DNA of 21,766 bases from a virus. The DNA lies in IMG/VR virus record IMGVR_UViG_3300028025_000375, positions 1 to 21,766 of that record. One strand, 5' to 3'. Each line of letters opens with the position of its first letter. Position 1 is the first letter of the stretch. The translations under genes were made by a program, and so were the position numbers. The notes beneath the pieces were generated by a model. That model did not search any database, was not told the origin of the DNA, and worked only from the letters and a program-made list of their open reading frames with translations. Shown here piece after piece: positions 3,845 through 11,928 of the stretch.

Positions 3845-3968
3845 TTCCACCTCCATTAGGTTTGAGTTCATAAAGGTAATGTTTAACTAACCATCTCACT
3901 GAGCCAGCAAACGCTGATACAATTGCAACAATAGATACGATTAAGCCAGCCCAGTTTGCTGCTGTCAT
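3768..3968 (-). CDS. Single-helix membrane protein with short coiled coil (66 aa)
   Basis: The ATG at 3968 overlaps the stop of the 735-aa gene by 1 nt (TAATG). Residues 6-28 form one membrane helix (WAGLIVSIVAIVSAF...). A basic, aromatic stretch and a Gly-rich linker (about 36-42) follow, then a heptad-like segment around 43-63 (VKDQVNRLEARIDDIYRI). It resembles small holin-like or inner-membrane-spanin-like proteins. The basic residues just after the helix (RWLVKH) suggest the coiled coil stays in the cytoplasm, which would not suit a spanin. Its 3' end is overlapped out of frame by the lipoprotein gene. Confidence 0.72.
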   Translation of the reverse strand: MTAANWAGLIVSIVAIVSAFAGSVRWLVKHYLYELKPNGGGSVKDQVNRLEARIDDIYRIICERNN

Positions 3969-6175
3969 TATAAGACGGTCCTAACTGTGATAGAGAGAAG
4001 ACCGCCAAATCCGTCAAACTTACCTGATGGTGGGGTCCTGCGCGAGAAGTTGATTCTTTCAATAAGTCCTTGAATACGTTCACCAGTAGTAAAATCTTGC
4101 ACGTTCACAATATCACCCGCTGCTTCGATTGCTTCAAGGATTTGAATACGCTCCCACGCACGATTCTCATAGCCAGTTTGTACACCGTAACGGTCAGTTT
4201 CTACGTCAAAGCACCAGACAGGAAACTGAATCAATCTCTGTCTCTTGGTGGCAGGTAGAGCCTTTGCTTGATAACCCTTAAAGATAGGGCCTAGACTGGT
4301 ATTGCTTGCGCTGCGTGAGAGCGTAAACTTGTATGAGATATACTCTTGTGCATTCTCTGGGTATGTGGTTGCTGCCTCTGGAGTACCTGCAGTAGCACTG
4401 TAAGTAATTACTGTATAGATAGTTCCATCAGGACCAACGGTTTGGATATCCATAGCACCATTAGTAAAGTCACCACGACCACGGATAAACTTAAAGTTTT
4501 TAGGCTCAAGTGTTCCATAACGGATAGCACCAGTGGTTAGATATCCACTAGAACGTAGCACAGTTGGTGACTCAAGATAGATAGCACCATTGGTAGAATT
4601 GTGAGCAGTTGTAAAGGACAATTGATTGGTTGTTCCAATAAAGGCTACAGAAGTCGTGTAATGAGTTTCTGACTGAGAAACCTGTAAGTCATTAGCATAA
4701 GCAAAACGCAATGGCTCATCTAGAATAGTTTGACCTAAGTCAATGCGGACTAAACCACCATCAATAGAGCCAATCCCAGAGGCACACCAAACGAAACGGT
4801 CACGCCCACAAAAGTCATAAACTGGTTGATGGGATTCAAAGATAACTGGTCCGTAGGCAAGAGAACCATCTTGGTCATTAACTGTAGATACACGAACACC
4901 ACGGCTAGTTCCAATAAGCATGTAACCTAGGTAGTAGTAGAGTCTTTCAATAATCTCTCCTGGTGGCAACTCGGCAGCAACAGATGCCTGTGAAAGTGTA
5001 GGCATAGCACCACCAGTAGTAAGAGTATACTTCTGGATAGTGGAGTAGATACCTGAGTGACCAGCAGTGTAGATAGCAGGACCTGATGCTGAGATACTTG
5101 TATAGTGATAATTAGTATTAGGGTTTGTATATACAGCAGTAGGCAACGATGTTGCGTTAGGAGATACCTCGTATACTGCGTTATTAACGCATAGTACAAT
5201 ACGGTCTTTTACAAACTCCATAGTAGCATATGTAATAGTAATACTGTTTGCAGTAAACATAGGCGATGGAACGGTTGTTGTGTTATCAGTCAGTAACTTC
5301 TTGTACATATGAAGTCTTGGAGTACCACTGACATCAGCATTAGTTACCCAGTATGCATATACGCCGTCATCACAGATAGCATAAACAGGTTCAGCACTTC
5401 CAGTGTTATAATCAATAAAGTGAATAATAGAAGCAACGCCAGTGCCAACTGGAGATACTGCAGCAGATGGAACATCGCTAGCAGTTTTTGCATAGGTAAA
5501 GGTAGTAGTTGTTGGTACGCTAGTAATGCGGTATTCACCGTCAAACGGTGAACCTACCCCACTAATTGTAATTTCCATGCCAATAGATAGACCGTGTACT
5601 GCAGTAGTAGTCAGTGTAGCCACATTAGAAGTCAATGCTTTATTACTGATAGATACTGTGATAGTAGGGAATACCTTATCTACATCGTATTCATCATGTA
5701 AAAGAATACCGTTGGTGCTATTCCATTGAATAGAACGAGCATGTTGATTAACGTGCTGATGGTCTGAACCTGTTACAGGTCCTGTAGTAATATGAGTGCT
5801 AACTACATCCTTAAGTAGTGTTACCTGTCCTTTAGTCCAGACATCTACACCTTGTGAGTCAGCAAAACGGTATGGGCTTGACTCGCCTGTAGATGGGTCA
5901 TAGAACTTAATACCATTACCTACGTGGAAAGATGACTGTGAACGAATCCACCAGCCAGTCAATGATTGCTCACCTGGCTCCTTGCCATTATCAAACTGGT
6001 CCTTACGATAAGGAGCAGTCTCACGTTGGTAAGGGTTCTGGTCTGTAGGTGCTAGGAAGAAAGGTTCTCCACCAACAGCAACGTCATAATCCTCAGCGGT
6101 ATTAGTCCAAAAGCCAGAGACTCCAGGGTTACCAATGTTTAAGGGGATATTTTCCGTAATATCTGGCGTTGGCAT
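3968..6175 (-). CDS. Large tail structural protein (735 aa)
   Basis: The ATG at 6175 follows a strong ribosome binding site (AAGGAG, 4-5 nt away). The N-terminus (about 1-125) is rich in aromatic and polar residues (PFFLAPTDQNPYQRE, TGWWIRSQSSF). Residues about 172-247 look like an inserted Ig-like beta domain (GLSIGMEITISGVGSPFDGE, then TTTTFTYAK). The remainder is a long beta-rich region with repeated VYAICDDGVYAYWVT- and IYTAGHSGIYS-like strands suggestive of a beta-propeller-like fold. The C-terminus ends in a compact domain with FPVWCFDVETDRYG. It lies between the adhesin genes and the lysis cassette. A tail knob/nozzle or minor tail protein is likely; exact function is not established. 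Confidence 0.7.
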   Translation of the reverse strand: MPTPDITENIPLNIGNPGVSGFWTNTAEDYDVAVGGEPFFLAPTDQNPYQRETAPYRKDQFDNGKEPGEQSLTGWWIRSQSSFHVGNGIKFYDPSTGESSPYRFADSQGVDVWTKGQVTLLKDVVSTHITTGPVTGSDHQHVNQHARSIQWNSTNGILLHDEYDVDKVFPTITVSISNKALTSNVATLTTTAVHGLSIGMEITISGVGSPFDGEYRITSVPTTTTFTYAKTASDVPSAAVSPVGTGVASIIHFIDYNTGSAEPVYAICDDGVYAYWVTNADVSGTPRLHMYKKLLTDNTTTVPSPMFTANSITITYATMEFVKDRIVLCVNNAVYEVSPNATSLPTAVYTNPNTNYHYTSISASGPAIYTAGHSGIYSTIQKYTLTTGGAMPTLSQASVAAELPPGEIIERLYYYLGYMLIGTSRGVRVSTVNDQDGSLAYGPVIFESHQPVYDFCGRDRFVWCASGIGSIDGGLVRIDLGQTILDEPLRFAYANDLQVSQSETHYTTSVAFIGTTNQLSFTTAHNSTNGAIYLESPTVLRSSGYLTTGAIRYGTLEPKNFKFIRGRGDFTNGAMDIQTVGPDGTIYTVITYSATAGTPEAATTYPENAQEYISYKFTLSRSASNTSLGPIFKGYQAKALPATKRQRLIQFPVWCFDVETDRYGVQTGYENRAWERIQILEAIEAAGDIVNVQDFTTGERIQGLIERINFSRRTPPSGKFDGFGGLLSITVRTVL
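5435..5662 (-). other. Ig-like beta domain inserted in the 735-aa tail protein
   Basis: This interval encodes residues about 172-247. The pattern is short beta strands, then HGLSIGMEITISGVG, then an ITSV...TTTTFTY strand pair. It resembles the insertion in the major capsid protein and looks like a mobile surface domain of the kind often found in virion proteins. Confidence 0.4.
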
Positions 6176-6191
6176 TGTGCTCCTTAGTTAG

Positions 6192-6222
6192 AAAAATTGG
6201 CGAGCAGTTTGAATCCTTGCTC
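6192..6222 (-). terminator. Weak hairpin with T-run between adhesin cassette and 735-aa tail gene
   Basis: On the minus strand GAGCA (6222-6218) and TGCTC (6206-6202) form a 5-bp stem around an 11-nt loop, followed a few bases later by TTTTT (6196-6192). The stem is short, so at most partial termination is expected. It lies in the longest gap (58 nt) of the tail region. Confidence 0.3.
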
Positions 6223-6233
6223 AGGGATAAGTA

Positions 6234-6506
6234 TTAATTTTCTATTGCTGGTGTTTCAATTGCCGTTGATTCAACATCAAACACATCAAGTGCTGGTGAA
6301 TAGAACTCATCATTGACTTCATCATAAATGTCACCAACGCCAGCAAATTTTCCACGGATATTTCCATTATAAGATGTCTTTACCCAGGTGCCACCAAGAT
6401 TATCAATTAACCATTGATATCCTTCATCCCCTGCTGGGTCATTATTGTCTCCAACAGTTACGCGAAGAACAACATTATTCTCATCAATTTCTGCCCAATG
6501 AGACAT
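6234..6506 (-). CDS. Small tail-associated protein paired with glycine-rich adhesin (90 aa)
   Basis: The ATG at 6506 begins 2 nt after the stop of the 324-aa glycine-rich gene. The N-terminus MSHWAEIDENNVVLRVTVGD, the middle DEGYQWLIDNLGGTWVKTSY and the segment GVGDIYDEVNDEFYSP recall a small protein that is common beside tail-fibre genes of cyanophages and other marine phages, where its function is undefined. The opening strand and the GVGDIYD motif match the 62-aa protein at 8068-8256, so the two look related. Possible roles are assembly chaperone or minor structural protein. Confidence 0.75.
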   Translation of the reverse strand: MSHWAEIDENNVVLRVTVGDNNDPAGDEGYQWLIDNLGGTWVKTSYNGNIRGKFAGVGDIYDEVNDEFYSPALDVFDVESTAIETPAIEN

Positions 6507-6508
6507 AA

Positions 6509-7483
6509 TTAATCTACCTGCACTTTCGTGTAACGAATAATTACAATACCTGAACCACCTGGTGACGCGGGGTTGTTATATGTTTGATATCCTGCGTTGT
6601 AAGAATTTCCACCACCGCCAGAGCCAGTATTAGCAAGACCTGCGCTAGAACCATTTGTGGTTCCAGCATCGTTACCGTCTCCACCTTTACCACCGCCACC
6701 ATTGGTAGCACCTCCTGGTGTTTGTCCTTTTCTTCCAGCACTTCCTCCGCCAGCAAACCAATAGGTGCCACCAACGTTTTGACCACTAGAAGTTATAGAA
6801 CCAATACTGCTATATGCCGTTGTTCCCGCACCACCAATACCAGTTCCTGGTGATGTAGTTCCTGCTGTTCCTACAGCACCTGCACCACCACCACCTCCAC
6901 CTGTAACATCATAAGAAGCAGAGCCGACATAGTTTCCATAACCGCCAAGATTTCCTTGAGTTGGAGATGCTGCCGTTAAGGACTGGTACCCACCAACTCC
7001 CCAACCACTTCCATCATTGTAGGCATAACTACCACCACCACCAGATGAACCGCCAGATTGACCTAGCAGTCTTGAGTCATAACCTGCACCACCACCGCCA
7101 CGACCACCACCAGTTGATGTCACAGAACCAATAACAGAGTCACTTCCGTTTGCCGTGTTTGCTCCACCTGCACCTACAGTAACTGCTAAATTAGTATTAG
7201 ATGATTGAGAGGTTACAAAACGAACACCACCTGCACCACCTCCACCGCCTGCGGTATAAACAACTGGGAAACTAGCGGTTTGATTGTATCCAGAACCACC
7301 ACCTCCACCACCTGCAATAACTAAAGCGTCATATGTAAGTGCTGAACCAGTGATGCCTAAAGTTCCATTAGCGGTAAACTTACGATAGTAGTATGTTGCA
7401 TCTGAATAAAGAGTTCCTCCAGTTACTACTGGTTTTAACTTTATAACTAACGCGTGAGACGCAGTAGTTCCTAAAATAGGCAT
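6509..7483 (-). CDS. Glycine-rich tail-tip adhesin candidate 2 (324 aa)
   Basis: The ATG at 7483 has AAGGAG about 5 nt upstream. Residues 1-55 form a beta-rich N-terminal segment (YYYRKFTANGTL). From residue about 56 onward the protein is built of many Gly tracts (GGGGGG, AGGGGGAGG, GGGRGGGG and so on) separated by short variable loops, ending in GGSGIVIIRYTK. Such layouts occur in phage receptor-binding tips; gp38-type adhesins of T-even phages stack polyglycine helices that present variable loops. The gene lies among fibre genes and is followed by the 90-aa protein. Receptor binding is inferred. It is a probable paralogue of the 313-aa glycine-rich protein. Confidence 0.75.
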   Translation of the reverse strand: MPILGTTASHALVIKLKPVVTGGTLYSDATYYYRKFTANGTLGITGSALTYDALVIAGGGGGGSGYNQTASFPVVYTAGGGGGAGGVRFVTSQSSNTNLAVTVGAGGANTANGSDSVIGSVTSTGGGRGGGGAGYDSRLLGQSGGSSGGGGSYAYNDGSGWGVGGYQSLTAASPTQGNLGGYGNYVGSASYDVTGGGGGGAGAVGTAGTTSPGTGIGGAGTTAYSSIGSITSSGQNVGGTYWFAGGGSAGRKGQTPGGATNGGGGKGGDGNDAGTTNGSSAGLANTGSGGGGNSYNAGYQTYNNPASPGGSGIVIIRYTKVQVD

Positions 7484-7492
7484 AGTTTCTCC

Positions 7493-8071
7493 TTATGCTG
7501 ATAAGTCGCCGACAAGTACCCAAGTATCTGTAGCACGTTTAATAAGTGTGGCTGATGACCATTGTGTACGTAGTTTAAGTCCTGGGGTTGCGTTAATTGT
7601 TACCCCAGCGCCGCCTACAGTAATCTGTCCTGCTCCAGTTTGAAGCAAATTGATTTGCGTTCCCGTAGGAAAGGCAACAGATGCATTAGTAGGAACTGTC
7701 AAAGTAATAGCAGAAGCATTACTTATTTCTACAAGTTTACCATTATCTGTCAAAACAAGTGTATACGCTGTACCAGTTTGCGGATTACTTGCCAAGTTAA
7801 CAACTGGTGCAGTAAGAGTCTTATTGGTTAATGTCTGCGTATCAGTAGTTCCTACAATTGAACCCGTTGCACCGTGTACTCCAGATGAAGCACCAGTATG
7901 AGTAGTTAAATTTGATGCAGTTGCGTACGTAGATGCTGCAGTAGCAGTTGCTAACTTAGCATCAATCTGTGTCTGCACAGCAGAAGTTACGCCATCTAAG
8001 TAGCCTAACTCTGTAGCAGATACTGTAGTTAAGGCTGTACCAGCATTGGCTAGGTCACGGGCTTTAGTCAT
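7493..8071 (-). CDS. Tail-fibre-like protein (192 aa)
   Basis: The start overlaps the stop of the 62-aa gene by 4 nt (ATGA, 8068-8071). The N-terminus MTKARDLANAGTALTTVS is followed by ATELGYLDGVTSAVQTQIDA, both common in marine-phage tail fibres. The segment GTTDTQTLTNKTLTAPVV is another typical fibre element. The C-terminal half (about 100-190) is a beta domain with LTVPTNASVAFPTGTQI and ends KRATDTWVLVGD. The alternation of short predicted coiled coil and beta strands suggests a trimeric fibre or collar fibre. It sits between the two glycine-rich cassettes. Confidence 0.75.
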   Translation of the reverse strand: MTKARDLANAGTALTTVSATELGYLDGVTSAVQTQIDAKLATATAASTYATASNLTTHTGASSGVHGATGSIVGTTDTQTLTNKTLTAPVVNLASNPQTGTAYTLVLTDNGKLVEISNASAITLTVPTNASVAFPTGTQINLLQTGAGQITVGGAGVTINATPGLKLRTQWSSATLIKRATDTWVLVGDLSA

Positions 8072-8256
8072 TCAGTTACCTCTGGTTCTGCTGCTTTGAT
8101 AAATTGAGTTCCATCATATGAATCACCAATACCAAATTCTGTTGGTGGCAACTCTACACAATTTGCGTTAGTAGCGGCAGTTGCTATTTCCAAAGAGTCA
8201 GCCACAATGATATTAATAATTTCATTTTCTTCATTAAGTACTGCAAAATTAACCAT
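8068..8256 (-). CDS. Small tail-associated protein paired with glycine-rich adhesin (62 aa)
   Basis: The ATG at 8256 follows AAGGAG with normal spacing, 11 nt after the 313-aa glycine-rich gene. The protein opens MVNFAVLNEENEIINIIVAD and has GIGDSYDGTQFIKA near its C-terminus. This pattern is common in small proteins next to phage tail-fibre genes, and the YDGTQF-like motif also occurs in fibre assembly proteins. It resembles the 90-aa protein at 6234-6506 in its first strand and its G(I/V)GDxYD motif. Chaperone or minor fibre subunit is an inference from the repeated pairing with a glycine-rich gene. Confidence 0.72.
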   Translation of the reverse strand: MVNFAVLNEENEIINIIVADSLEIATAATNANCVELPPTEFGIGDSYDGTQFIKAAEPEVTE

Positions 8257-8267
8257 TTAATTTCTCC

Positions 8268-9209
8268 TTAGTAATAAATCAATACGCATCCAGCGCCACC
8301 GTTGCCTGCTTGGCTTGCACCAAATCCAGCACCGCCACCACCACCACCTGAGCCACCGTTACCACCAGTAGTTCCAGAACCGCTACTACCTGCTGCTAAA
8401 AATCCTGCACCACCACCAGAACCACCGCCACCTGCACCTGTTCCTCCTGCAAAGGTTGCTGTTATTCCACCGTCTCTAAATGAACCTCCGCCATTTCCAG
8501 AAGAAGCACCACCTCCTGCGGTAAATCCAGAACCACCAGTGTTTCCCCAAGGAGCATCCGCTGACCAAGCACCCGCGCCGCCGCCTAAATAATTATGTTG
8601 GCGTACATTAAGAAGATTTGAAACAGAAGTAACGGTGCTTGAACCTGAAGCCTGTGACCAGTTACCTTTATTATTTCCCCAAGGTGCACCACAAGGCAAT
8701 GTAAGTATTTTATTTGTATTTGGAAACACAGGAGTAGCAGCGTTGCCACCATAGCCAGGTACACCATCGCCGTGAATAGGTACTGCAGTGCCAGTGTCAA
8801 GTTGAGCGTTACCATTACCACAACCACCACCACCGCCATTTGCAAAAACTGTACCAAAAATAGTTGTTCCACCTCTGCCGCCATTGCTTGATGCGGTTAC
8901 ACCACCTGCGCCAATGGTTGCAGTGATTCCAGTAGACGGAACATCTACCCAACCAATTACTACACCACCACCACCGCCGCCGCCATTTGCTGAAGTTGAG
9001 CCATTGCTGCCACCTGCACCACCTGCGCCAACTATTACTGCCCATACTTGTGCGGGTAACTGACCAGCAGTAAATGTGGTTGTAGAAGTAACTGTATTTT
9101 GTAAACTTAATCCAGCAGGAATGTTAAATGGCATATTTGATGCAGCAGGAAAACGACCAACCGATAAACCACTTGCTGCTGTAGGAACAGGAAATACTGA
9201 TAGACCCAT
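8268..9209 (-). CDS. Glycine-rich tail-tip adhesin candidate 1 (313 aa)
   Basis: The ATG at 9209 is chosen because the preceding gene stops at 9211 and GAGG lies about 10 nt upstream; the longer frame from 9290 would overlap that gene by 80 nt. The N-terminal 65 residues (MGLSVFPVPTAASG...TTTFTAG) form a beta-rich anchor. From about residue 75 the sequence is dominated by Gly tracts with intervening variable loops, ending GNGGAGCVLIYY. The C-terminal motif and the overall plan match the 324-aa protein. Adhesin function is inferred from glycine-rich phage tips and from position after the fibre gene. Confidence 0.75.
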   Translation of the reverse strand: MGLSVFPVPTAASGLSVGRFPAASNMPFNIPAGLSLQNTVTSTTTFTAGQLPAQVWAVIVGAGGAGGSNGSTSANGGGGGGGVVIGWVDVPSTGITATIGAGGVTASSNGGRGGTTIFGTVFANGGGGGCGNGNAQLDTGTAVPIHGDGVPGYGGNAATPVFPNTNKILTLPCGAPWGNNKGNWSQASGSSTVTSVSNLLNVRQHNYLGGGAGAWSADAPWGNTGGSGFTAGGGASSGNGGGSFRDGGITATFAGGTGAGGGGSGGGAGFLAAGSSGSGTTGGNGGSGGGGGGAGFGASQAGNGGAGCVLIYY

Positions 9210-9210
9210 A

Positions 9211-9516
9211 TTAAGATACCTCAATTCCGCTGATGTGGAAGTTAATTGATGTTGCTGATGCTCCACCAGTAATGGTCTGAGTTGCGGCAAGTACCTGCTT
9301 TAGGTCAATGTATGCTGTTGTGTTTGCAGCAATGGCTGCAGTTGTGTGCAGTGCAGTACCAGCAAGTCCTAGTGTAAATGTACCTGCAGTTCCTGCTGTG
9401 TTAGTCACAGCAATGTTAGTTACAATTGTTGTTGTAGAAGAAGGAACTGTATAAAGAGTTGTTCCTACTGTAGTTGTTGCTGCTCCACGGAACAGCGCCT
9501 TGGTTGTTGTTGGCAT
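9211..9516 (-). CDS. Small beta-rich structural protein (101 aa)
   Basis: The ATG at 9516 follows AAAGGGAG with good spacing, 15 nt after the 798-aa fibre gene. The sequence is almost entirely Thr, Ala, Ile, Val and Gly in alternating strands (TLYTVPSSTTTIVTNIAVTN, then AIAANTTAYIDLKQVL), typical of a small beta sandwich. I recall similar 90-110-aa proteins in tail and decoration regions of phages. It may be a minor tail or capsid decoration protein; the exact role is unknown. Confidence 0.68.
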   Translation of the reverse strand: MPTTTKALFRGAATTTVGTTLYTVPSSTTTIVTNIAVTNTAGTAGTFTLGLAGTALHTTAAIAANTTAYIDLKQVLAATQTITGGASATSINFHISGIEVS

Positions 9517-9531
9517 TACTTACTCCCTTTC

Positions 9532-11928
9532 TTAGAGTGCGCCCATTAGGATTAGTGCCAGTTCATCTGCCACGCTTCCTGGACCGTTAAGTACTACGTC
9601 GGTTAATCCTGAAATTGTTGTTACTGTTGCACCTGATGCAATAGTTGTTGAACCCAAAGTTGGTGCTGAGTAGCCAGATACTGCTGCCCATTTGATACCA
9701 GTAGCAGTTGATGAGTCAGCCTGTAGGTAGTACCCATCAGTGCCAAGTGTTAATTTTCCTGGTGTGTCTGCAGCAGTTGCTACTAAGATGTCACCTTTAG
9801 CATCAAATAAACTCTTGTCAATTGCTGTTGCCAGTTCAAATGATGTGAAAGTAATAATCTCCACAATGTCTCCAGCAACCAGCGCTGCAAGAGATGTGAT
9901 GCTTGTACCATTAGATGCTGTGTAGTCAGATGTGCGAGCAAGAAGTACACCATTGAGGTATACCTGCTCTTTACCTGGTAGATAACTTAAAGTTACGCCA
10001 TTAGCATCAGTTCCTGTAAGTGATGTTTCTCCGCCAGATGCATCAAAGCGGTAGCGGAAGATTGCAGCAGTTGAGGAGATTGAACCCCATTCTGTTCCAG
10101 TCCAGGCATACATTGCATTGGTTGTTGAGTTCCAGTAGATAGCACCTGTGATAAGTGAGTTACCATCATTGTCTACAGATGGAGCAGATGACTTGGCACC
10201 TAAGTAACGGTCATCAAAGTTATCATAAGTTGTAGCAGCGGCAGCAGCACTTGCTGCAGCAGCGGTAGCAGAACCTGCAACTGCGTCTACGTATACCTTA
10301 GTAGCAGCATCTGCATCGCTTGTAGGTGTTCCTAAACCAGTTACCTTGAAACCACCAGCAGCAAGATTGCCAAGTAGTGTTCCAGTTGTTCTATTTAGGT
10401 ATGTACCAGAAAGACTAATTGCTCCAGTGTTACCGTCAACAGATAGAACTGCATCTGTTGGAGTAAGCAATTCTTGCCAGTTGCCAAGGGTAGAGGCTGG
10501 AGTTGCTGTAAGAATAAATGACTTGTTAACATCTGTGCGAACTGCAACGTCACCAATCTGTGCAGTCAAAGCAAGCATTGCAGCCTGCGAAATAACCACT
10601 GATGTTTCGGTAATTGCTAATGCAGGTAATTGATTAGTAGGAATTAATCCAGAACCATCTAGAGATGCAATACCATTTACTGCACCCTTTTGAGTTGTAA
10701 TGTAGTTAAGAGTTACTGCATCTTGAGCATTAGTTGGGTCTGCAAGTCCTGTAATCTTCTGAGCATTCAAGGCAACGGCTGCAGTAGGTGCTGCCATCTG
10801 GTCTAGGCGAGATGTACGAACCTGTGTATCAAAGTCTGAGATAGTAGATGCTGTCTGTGTACCTGTGTGGTTAGCACGAGCCAGTGGGTCTACCGCCAAC
10901 TTAGATAGGGCAATAGCAGCAGATGCGTTGATGTCTGCATTAACAATAGTTCCGTCAACCAAGTCAGCAGAGGTAATAGTTCCGCCAAGGTCTAACTTAG
11001 TTTTAGCAATTGCTGCGGTAGCAGATACGTCAGCATTGACAATAGTACCGTCTAGAATCTTGGCAGATGTAACTGCTCCGTCTGCTAGGTCACCAGCAAC
11101 GATAGTGCCATCAGCAATCTTAGCCGAAGTAATAGCACTGTCAGCAATATCTCCAGTAGCAATTGTTCCATCAAGAATCTTTGCTGATGTAATGGCTCCA
11201 TCTGCAATGTCGCCAGCAACAATTGTTCCGTCTGCAATCTTAGCGCTAGTTACTGCTGAGTCTGCAATCTTGGCAGTAGCAACTGCGTTAGGGGCTAATT
11301 TTCCTTCTGTAACTGATAGGTCATCAATCTTAACTGTTCCTACAGCACCTGTTGCAATCTTACCGCTTGTGATAGCAGAGTCTGCGATATCACCTGTAGC
11401 AATAGTAAGGTCTGCGATTTTGGCAGATGTAATTGCGCTATCAGCAATCTTTGCAGTGGTTACGTTAGCATCTGTAATTTTAGCAGTAGTTACAGCGTTT
11501 GCCTGGAGCATTGCTGTAGTAATCATGTTTGTGTCGGTTGTCTCTAGGACGTTGGCAATAGTCAATCCGTGAGCAGTTGTGACATTCTCAATGTGATTGT
11601 TAGCCTCACGGAAGTCCACGGCGATAGCCATGTGACGAACCTTGGCACCTGCTGAGTGAGCAATACCAGAGACACCTTCTGTACCAGTTCCATCTACACC
11701 ACGAATAATTGTGATTGTTGTGCTAGCAGGAGAAGTAGGAGAAACAGCATAGACAATTTCTTCAAGTGCTGTATCTGGGTCAATGACAAGTGTAAAGCGC
11801 TCACCAGAACCAGGAGTAATGCCACCCAGTACGTTTGCTGAGTTGACAGTCATAGTCGTAGCGGTAGCGTTAAGAGCGGTTTGTAAGTAGGTCTCTTGTG
11901 AGATAGAGGAATAGCGGCGAACTGTCAT
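9532..11928 (-). CDS. Long tail-fibre protein with decapeptide repeats (798 aa)
   Basis: The ATG at 11928 follows GAGG with acceptable spacing and lies 3 nt after the connector gene. Residues 1-110 form an N-terminal domain with a TIIRGVDGTGT motif, probably the virion anchor. Residues 141-300 are sixteen consecutive 10-residue repeats, roughly (I/L)-(A/L)-D-x-(A/T)-I-x-(S/T)-A-(K/D), expected to form a beta-helical or spiral fibre shaft. Then come HTGTQTASTISDF, two VTGLG/ITGLADPT-type elements, GAIYWNSTTNAMYAWTGTEW, a domain with EQVYLNGVLLARTSDY, and a C-terminal tip. These elements are widespread in T7-like and cyanophage fibres. The role is host recognition or positioning of the adhesins encoded downstream. 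Confidence 0.85.
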   Translation of the reverse strand: MTVRRYSSISQETYLQTALNATATTMTVNSANVLGGITPGSGERFTLVIDPDTALEEIVYAVSPTSPASTTITIIRGVDGTGTEGVSGIAHSAGAKVRHMAIAVDFREANNHIENVTTAHGLTIANVLETTDTNMITTAMLQANAVTTAKITDANVTTAKIADSAITSAKIADLTIATGDIADSAITSGKIATGAVGTVKIDDLSVTEGKLAPNAVATAKIADSAVTSAKIADGTIVAGDIADGAITSAKILDGTIATGDIADSAITSAKIADGTIVAGDLADGAVTSAKILDGTIVNADVSATAAIAKTKLDLGGTITSADLVDGTIVNADINASAAIALSKLAVDPLARANHTGTQTASTISDFDTQVRTSRLDQMAAPTAAVALNAQKITGLADPTNAQDAVTLNYITTQKGAVNGIASLDGSGLIPTNQLPALAITETSVVISQAAMLALTAQIGDVAVRTDVNKSFILTATPASTLGNWQELLTPTDAVLSVDGNTGAISLSGTYLNRTTGTLLGNLAAGGFKVTGLGTPTSDADAATKVYVDAVAGSATAAAASAAAAATTYDNFDDRYLGAKSSAPSVDNDGNSLITGAIYWNSTTNAMYAWTGTEWGSISSTAAIFRYRFDASGGETSLTGTDANGVTLSYLPGKEQVYLNGVLLARTSDYTASNGTSITSLAALVAGDIVEIITFTSFELATAIDKSLFDAKGDILVATAADTPGKLTLGTDGYYLQADSSTATGIKWAAVSGYSAPTLGSTTIASGATVTTISGLTDVVLNGPGSVADELALILMGAL
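11029..11508 (-). repeat. 30-bp-period coding repeat array (16 units) in the fibre gene
   Basis: These 480 bp encode residues 141-300 of the fibre as sixteen in-register 10-residue units. Alternate units differ (ADSAITSAKI versus ADGTIVAGDI types), so the higher-order period is 60 bp. Such arrays can change copy number by recombination. Confidence 0.75.

Follow-up and report, generated by a model that had tools for sequence, protein, structure and literature searches.

The closest described counterpart of the system reported here is found in cyanophage Pam3, where the fibre protein gp24 and its chaperone gp25 form a 3:3 complex (PDB 7YPX) and gp24 is mostly insoluble without gp25 (PMC9608196). 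The β-sandwich of gp25 binds the flank of the TNF-like and glycine-rich domains of gp24, mainly via its elements b2 and a1, and gp25 trimerises through its C-terminal helices; it was undetected in Pam3 virions by mass spectrometry, and the Tfa protein of phage Mu stays in the mature phage (PMC9608196). In Salmonella phage S16, gp38 (PDB 6F45, T-even type) forms the tip of a fibre that other genes encode (PMC9608196; partly general knowledge). Here we analyse a stretch of 21,766 bases (the window) from the virus record IMGVR_UViG_3300028025_000375 of an aquatic tailed phage, probably a fragment of the phage genome, which carries on its minus strand all relevant genes of two cassettes, each composed of a gene for a glycine-rich adhesin and a gene for a small partner protein: adhesin 1 with a protein of 62 amino acids (aa) in cassette 1, and adhesin 2 with a 90-aa protein in cassette 2. 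We consider it likely that each cassette encodes a tail adhesin together with its assembly chaperone.

Both units, which the first-pass annotation had described, are confirmed by the open reading frames (ORFs; Table 1), and the motifs it had named are present, namely NFAVLNEEN and HWAEIDENN as well as GIGDSYDG and GVGDIYDE in the small proteins, and GGAGCVLIYY and GGSGIVIIRY in the adhesins. Pairwise BLASTP aligned the small proteins over 7 residues only (E 0.035) and found no match between adhesin 1 and adhesin 2, and because these comparisons were nearly empty the motif likeness taken alone could be chance, the two small proteins being unrelated. That explanation is, however, contradicted at the family level, and we find it hardly credible: phrog_14370 matches both small proteins over nearly their full length (8.8e-14 for the 62-aa and 9.7e-7 for the 90-aa protein), and in the search of the window (2.6e-15 and 8.9e-9) they were the only two places it matched. 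Moreover, a profile-profile alignment (hhalign) of the two families, built from 54 sequences for the 62-type and 73 for the 90-type, paired them over 58 columns with a probability of 97.1% and E 5.8e-11, the GIGDxYD motif and the opening strand, which had first drawn attention to the pair, being in register. Judged from these profiles the two small proteins are homologous, and the relatedness on which the first-pass annotation had made its proposal depend has held up. As for the adhesins, both score above the gathering cut-off of the Pfam family PF21722, Gly_rich_2 (34.9 and 33.8 bits versus 24.3). No relative of adhesin 1 was found in a viral-contig search, as expected since this gene is hypervariable, and tblastn with the 62-aa protein and the 62-type consensus found none among 50,697 phage records. 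Both phrog_14370 and phrog_7759 are annotated as 'unknown function', NCBIfam gave no useful name, and our literature search found no paper describing these families, though one may exist elsewhere.

The 90-aa protein was modelled with AlphaFold2 from the 73-sequence alignment (predicted local distance difference test score, pLDDT, 81.4), which gave a b-b-a-b-b-b fold over residues 1-71 with pLDDT of ~90 over most of residues 1-70 and 64 in residues 21-30; residues 72-90 form a low-confidence tail without a helix (pLDDT ~63). In a Foldseek search of 350,542 PDB chains with this model, the top match was 7ypx_a, that is, Pam3 gp25 (probability 0.90, E 0.46), and VIA-align placed the model on gp25 residues 3-60 with Z 6.0 and a root-mean-square deviation of 2.2 over 58 residues. 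The VIA-align runner-up was Mu Tfa (5yvq_B; Z 3.0, 55 residues), the only other chain to reach Z 2 was an unrelated one (Z 2.2), and the predicted viral structures that matched the model were uncharacterised phage proteins. With these modest scores, the 90-aa protein is predicted to have the N-terminal β-sandwich fibre-binding domain of Tfa-type chaperones, and by homology the 62-aa protein would have a β-sandwich fold too. PDB sequence searches with the small-protein profiles and with adhesin 2 returned nothing credible; matches to SV2C at E 0.1 were dismissed as pattern noise, and weak Pfam matches (Orbivirus VP2; xanthine dehydrogenase a/b hammerhead) were isolated and rejected.

The model of adhesin 2 (pLDDT 85.4, predicted template-modelling score 0.87) had its best match in the other protein of the same complex, residues 29-323 aligning with residues 76-279 of Pam3 gp24 (7ypx_A) at Z 14.3 over 184 residues and 27% identity, part of which is accounted for by shared glycine. 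A protein of a siphophage tail tip, that of mycobacteriophage Bxb1 (PDB 9D93, chain Qa), came second (Z 13.5 over 189 residues), followed by the glycine-rich domains of ALK/LTK. On this model, adhesin 2 is predicted to consist of a TNF-like base and a multilayer glycine-rich domain with a tip; adhesin 1 is placed in the same putative class by homology. The N-terminal helical shaft by which gp24 docks to the baseplate is not predicted in adhesin 2, residues 1-18 of which contain no predicted helix and have low pLDDT in the first ten positions, and because no such shaft is predicted it is more likely that adhesin 2 is carried as a tip by another fibre protein. Such an arrangement of glycine-rich loops with a variable receptor-binding tip is also present in S16 gp38, in which a β-helix takes the place of the TNF-like base; 6F45 was not among the matches listed for adhesin 2, which is no evidence either way. 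Importantly, for both partners of cassette 2 the best matches of independent PDB fold searches were the two chains of 7YPX, and chance would hardly lead two independent searches to the same complex, with another fibre chaperone as the runner-up.

Several glycine-rich adhesins of relatives appear to be circularly permuted (loci L048:3864-4748, L080:5104-5979, L100, L102, L123, L148, L157 and L167), and the same look was seen in Melnitz-2 (L259), HTVC008M (L260) and ctn9Y15 (L261). In these proteins the strand TGGTxxxSGGYxYHxFTxNGTF, which most relatives have at the N-terminus, stands at the very C-terminus, where it follows a GSGxVIxRY-like strand where this is visible, and the small partner is still encoded downstream.

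The pairing of the two genes is close to constant in relatives. The viral collection contains at least 588 relatives of the 90-type family, of which the best 80 were kept, and among the 90-type ORFs with upstream sequence 100 of 106 stood directly after a glycine-rich ORF, mostly at a spacing of -4, -1 or +1 nt, over a background of 6.4% glycine-rich ORFs among the gene-like ORFs of these loci; the binomial value for this adjacency treats related loci as independent and is not to be taken literally. Of the 73 small genes of the 62-type, 49 directly follow a glycine-rich gene, and in at least seven further loci (L198, L201, L209, L222, L224, L231, L248) this gene lies one gene further upstream. 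Another seven loci (L186-L191 and L221), which are probably one virus, carry an identical small protein behind a 739-aa gene that is not glycine-rich. Further annotated records, mostly of cultured phages of Pelagibacter, Roseobacter, Synechococcus and Methylophilales, had a glycine-rich gene directly upstream of the small gene in 10 of 14 cases (HTVC023P, CRP-207, CRP-143, HTVC033P, HTVC025P, Melnitz-2, HTVC008M, ctn9Y15, S-RSM4 and S-SM1), and Bellamy, which the first search had found, brings these to eleven. ct2KA10 is an exception, as is Greip, for which the view is limited by the record edge. Some glycine-rich genes appear to have no small partner, examples being that of L137 and one of the two such genes in each of L154 and L101. 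Taken together, the survey found the small protein and the glycine-rich gene apart only seldom, with exceptions in T4-like cyanophages, which agrees with the linkage the first-pass annotation had predicted.

In phiPsal1, a phage of Pontimonas salivibrio, the upstream glycine-rich ORF exists and is unannotated in the deposit; at ~15.9-16.75 kb (L256, MG835450.1) the deposit lists instead the short hypotheticals phiPsal1_022 and _023, of which phiPsal1_023, the one checked, lies in another frame of the open glycine-rich frame. The T4-like cyanophages S-SSM5, P-RSM4, S-CAM8 and S-MS29 (L083, L087, L258, L262) have a 90-type homologue without a glycine-rich neighbour, surrounded instead by genes for ferrochelatase and 2OG-Fe oxygenase. 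Two or three glycine-rich genes stand in tandem before a single small gene at L123:13032-15711, L125:13059-15762, L126:8307-11010 and L162:14279-16991, and the presence of one small gene per array suggests that one helper may serve several adhesins. There are also three-gene cassettes in which an extra short protein family is inserted between the glycine-rich gene and the 62-type gene (L198:3777-4001, L201:3657-3845, L209:1213-1401, L231:2165-2365, L248:1306-1506); its members start with MWALL or MFALL and end like NSPAYxxGxYxxGKFYPPKG, and the two that were searched had no clear family match. Where the small domain seemed to be fused to sequence upstream of it, this proved to be out-of-frame read-through of the glycine-rich gene, and fusion was rejected.

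DNA comparison with 80 syntenic relatives revealed that each cassette is a hypervariable unit exchanged as a whole between otherwise conserved tails. On the right, 22 alignments of the flank break off at 9173-9232, most of them at 9187-9190 and thereby within the opening eight codons of the adhesin 1 gene. On the left, 27 alignments break off at 6145-6237, a zone bounded by the 735-aa gene's start and the 90-aa gene's stop codon. None of the 80 relatives covered half of the 62-aa gene or of either adhesin gene, for adhesin 1 no DNA similarity remained in any of them, and the 90-aa gene was half covered in one relative only. Between the cassettes, the N-terminal part of a 192-aa gene is a conserved DNA island, its N-terminal half being covered in nine of the 80. 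The close relative L089, 96% identical in a structural protein encoded nearby, has a different glycine-rich gene and an 82-aa protein in place of the second cassette, and this replacement ends just before the shared flank; the family of this 82-aa protein aligned with the 62-type profile at 92.8% probability, and its profile comparison with the 90-type was not significant. With L150, similarity breaks off within the small gene itself, so that residues ~36-90 match the window while the first ~35 residues and the adhesin differ; in this single case the N-terminal part of the 90-type protein, the elements of which are ordered like the contact elements of gp25, goes with the adhesin.

Table 1. Genes and segments of the two cassettes and their flanks in the window, in gene order
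Feature	Position	Strand	Remarks
798-aa tail fibre	9532-11928	-	first in gene order, before the 101-aa gene
101-aa gene	9211-9516	-	immediately precedes cassette 1; final gene ahead of the hypervariable module; conserved flank
Glycine-rich adhesin 1, 313 aa	8268-9209	-	C-terminal GGAGCVLIYY; PF21722, 4.6e-8
Adhesin 1, first ~8 codons (MGLSVFPV)	9187-9209	-	conserved N-terminal segment; flank alignments mostly end here
62-aa partner protein (62-type)	8068-8256	-	phrog_14370; 11 nt after adhesin 1
192-aa tail-fibre-like protein	7493-8071	-	between the cassettes; phrog_8780 minor tail protein, 1.2e-20
Glycine-rich adhesin 2, 324 aa	6509-7483	-	C-terminal end GGSGIVIIRYTKVQVD; PF21722, 2.1e-8
90-aa partner protein (90-type)	6234-6506	-	phrog_7759 and phrog_14370; 2 nt after adhesin 2
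90-aa protein, N-terminal ~35 codons	6402-6506	-	b1, b2 and most of a1; differs in L150
735-aa protein	3968-6175	-	next after the 90-aa gene in gene order

The 101-aa gene is covered by flank similarity in 22 of the 80 relatives and recurs upstream of glycine-rich cassettes of the 62-type, and similar genes of 100-104 aa precede glycine-rich genes in L222, L231, L248, L214 and L224. The conserved MGLSVFPV segment of adhesin 1 may be an anchor peptide. The 192-aa gene shares a 4-nt overlap with the 62-aa gene, and its conserved N-terminal DNA island, at 7923-8077, lies amid otherwise unalignable surroundings and is possibly a recombination anchor. The nearest relatives of the major capsid protein encoded in the window are those of an unassigned tailed phage and of Streptomyces phages, at below 50% identity.

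How closely each helper is matched to its adhesin can be judged from the variation within the 90-type clade. Residues 20-38 of the small protein, a loop and helix equivalent to part of the gp25 fibre contact, are nearly invariant (mean p-distance 0.06), and the adhesins of the same clade differ at about half of their positions, a pattern which suits binding to a conserved base and not to the variable tip. Moreover, this invariance, together with distances that are almost uncorrelated, weighs against an individual fit of each helper to its own adhesin. The distance-correlation test for residue-level co-evolution was weak, and tight one-to-one matching was dropped; specificity appears to lie at the subfamily level, at most. 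The first-pass annotation had proposed cognate chaperones: the fold matches to Pam3 gp25 and Mu Tfa favour the chaperone part of that proposal, and the divergence data speak against the tight one-to-one fit.

The chaperone reading draws directly on the homology of the two small proteins, the fold similarity of both partners of cassette 2 to the Pam3 complex, the near-constant adjacency, the closely packed frames and the joint exchange, and from these we infer binding, chaperone activity, release, a trimeric state and receptor binding as follows. The glycine-rich protein would fold into a TNF-like β base carrying glycine-rich loops that extend to a variable tip, and this tip would bind the host surface. 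The small protein, a stand-alone β-sandwich like the fibre-binding 'tentacle' of Tfa-type chaperones, would bind the nascent adhesin base beside the glycine-rich domain, shield the adhesin and enable its folding and trimerisation, and would then probably be released. By swapping the whole cassette, the phage could switch receptors or combine them while adhesin and helper stay matched. The likeness to Pam3 extends to the gene order, as in both cases a glycine-rich fibre with a TNF-like base is followed by the next gene for the putative or known chaperone; the differences are that gp25, at 162 residues, has a helical trimerisation domain which the small proteins do not have, and that the phage of the window has two cassettes. 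Mu Tfa (PDB 5YVQ), whose gene adjoins that of the fibre it serves, has an N-terminal domain of similar strand-helix layout, but it is larger, with extra helices, and serves a fibre of another type. By analogy, the cassettes would work like Pam3 gp24/gp25, but they are not of the Tfa family by sequence and lack one defining domain. Because they correspond to the β-sandwich of gp25 alone, the small proteins are most likely minimal Tfa-like assembly chaperones, made up of the fibre-binding domain only, without the trimerising helices of gp25.

Several observations weigh against this chaperone reading. A Z of 6.0 over a domain of 58 residues is modest, no sequence match linked the small proteins to gp25 or Tfa, and no Pfam chaperone or Tfa family was matched by the window proteins at E up to 1 or, at 0.1, by the 54 and 73 family members. 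At 62 and 90 aa, the small proteins are without the C-terminal helical trimerisation domain of gp25, and in the 90-type clade their divergence is almost uncorrelated with that of the adhesins (r 0.13-0.17). Finally, the small gene of P-RSM4, S-SSM5, S-CAM8 and S-MS29 stands downstream of ferrochelatase or its counterpart, and that of DSL-LC04 has a 2OG-Fe oxygenase gene upstream.

Alternatively, the small proteins could be virion components, acting as a permanent cap, collar or adaptor that stays on the adhesin, as Mu Tfa does on its fibre, and aids receptor recognition or tail fixation. Mu Tfa, which came second in the fold comparison, stays in the mature phage (PMC9608196), paired and closely packed genes suit a 1:1 complex, and a domain without trimerising helices could sit on each adhesin subunit; however, the closer match, Pam3 gp25, was not detected in virions by mass spectrometry, and the near-invariance of the segment that would face the adhesin gives no sign of a diversifying receptor contact, so that we consider a permanent virion role unlikely. 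It could also be that the two genes share no more than a host-range island in which they are swapped together, the small protein having another task, such as that of a general accessory in the tail or in lysis. The region is indeed a hypervariable island, and the homologue of the T4-like cyanophages adjoins ferrochelatase and oxygenase genes; such hitch-hiking, though, is at odds with an adjacency that persists in podo- and T4-like phages of several hosts and with a structural match specifically to two fibre chaperones, and we judge it distinctly improbable. We therefore favour the reading of each cassette as a tail adhesin with its assembly chaperone. On the broader proposal, that a widespread class of minimal chaperones acts on a conserved TNF-like base and makes adhesin and helper a portable host-range unit of aquatic phages, we see the balance as even.

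In summary, we propose a testable function for two families of 'unknown function' which are very common in aquatic viruses, and the chaperone reading explains why these small genes travel with glycine-rich adhesins. It also suggests that the trimerising helices are possibly dispensable for a fibre chaperone, and it bears on the prediction of receptors and on the expression of glycine-rich adhesins in soluble form. For uncultured phages, adhesin plus helper would be the unit whose exchange may change their host range.

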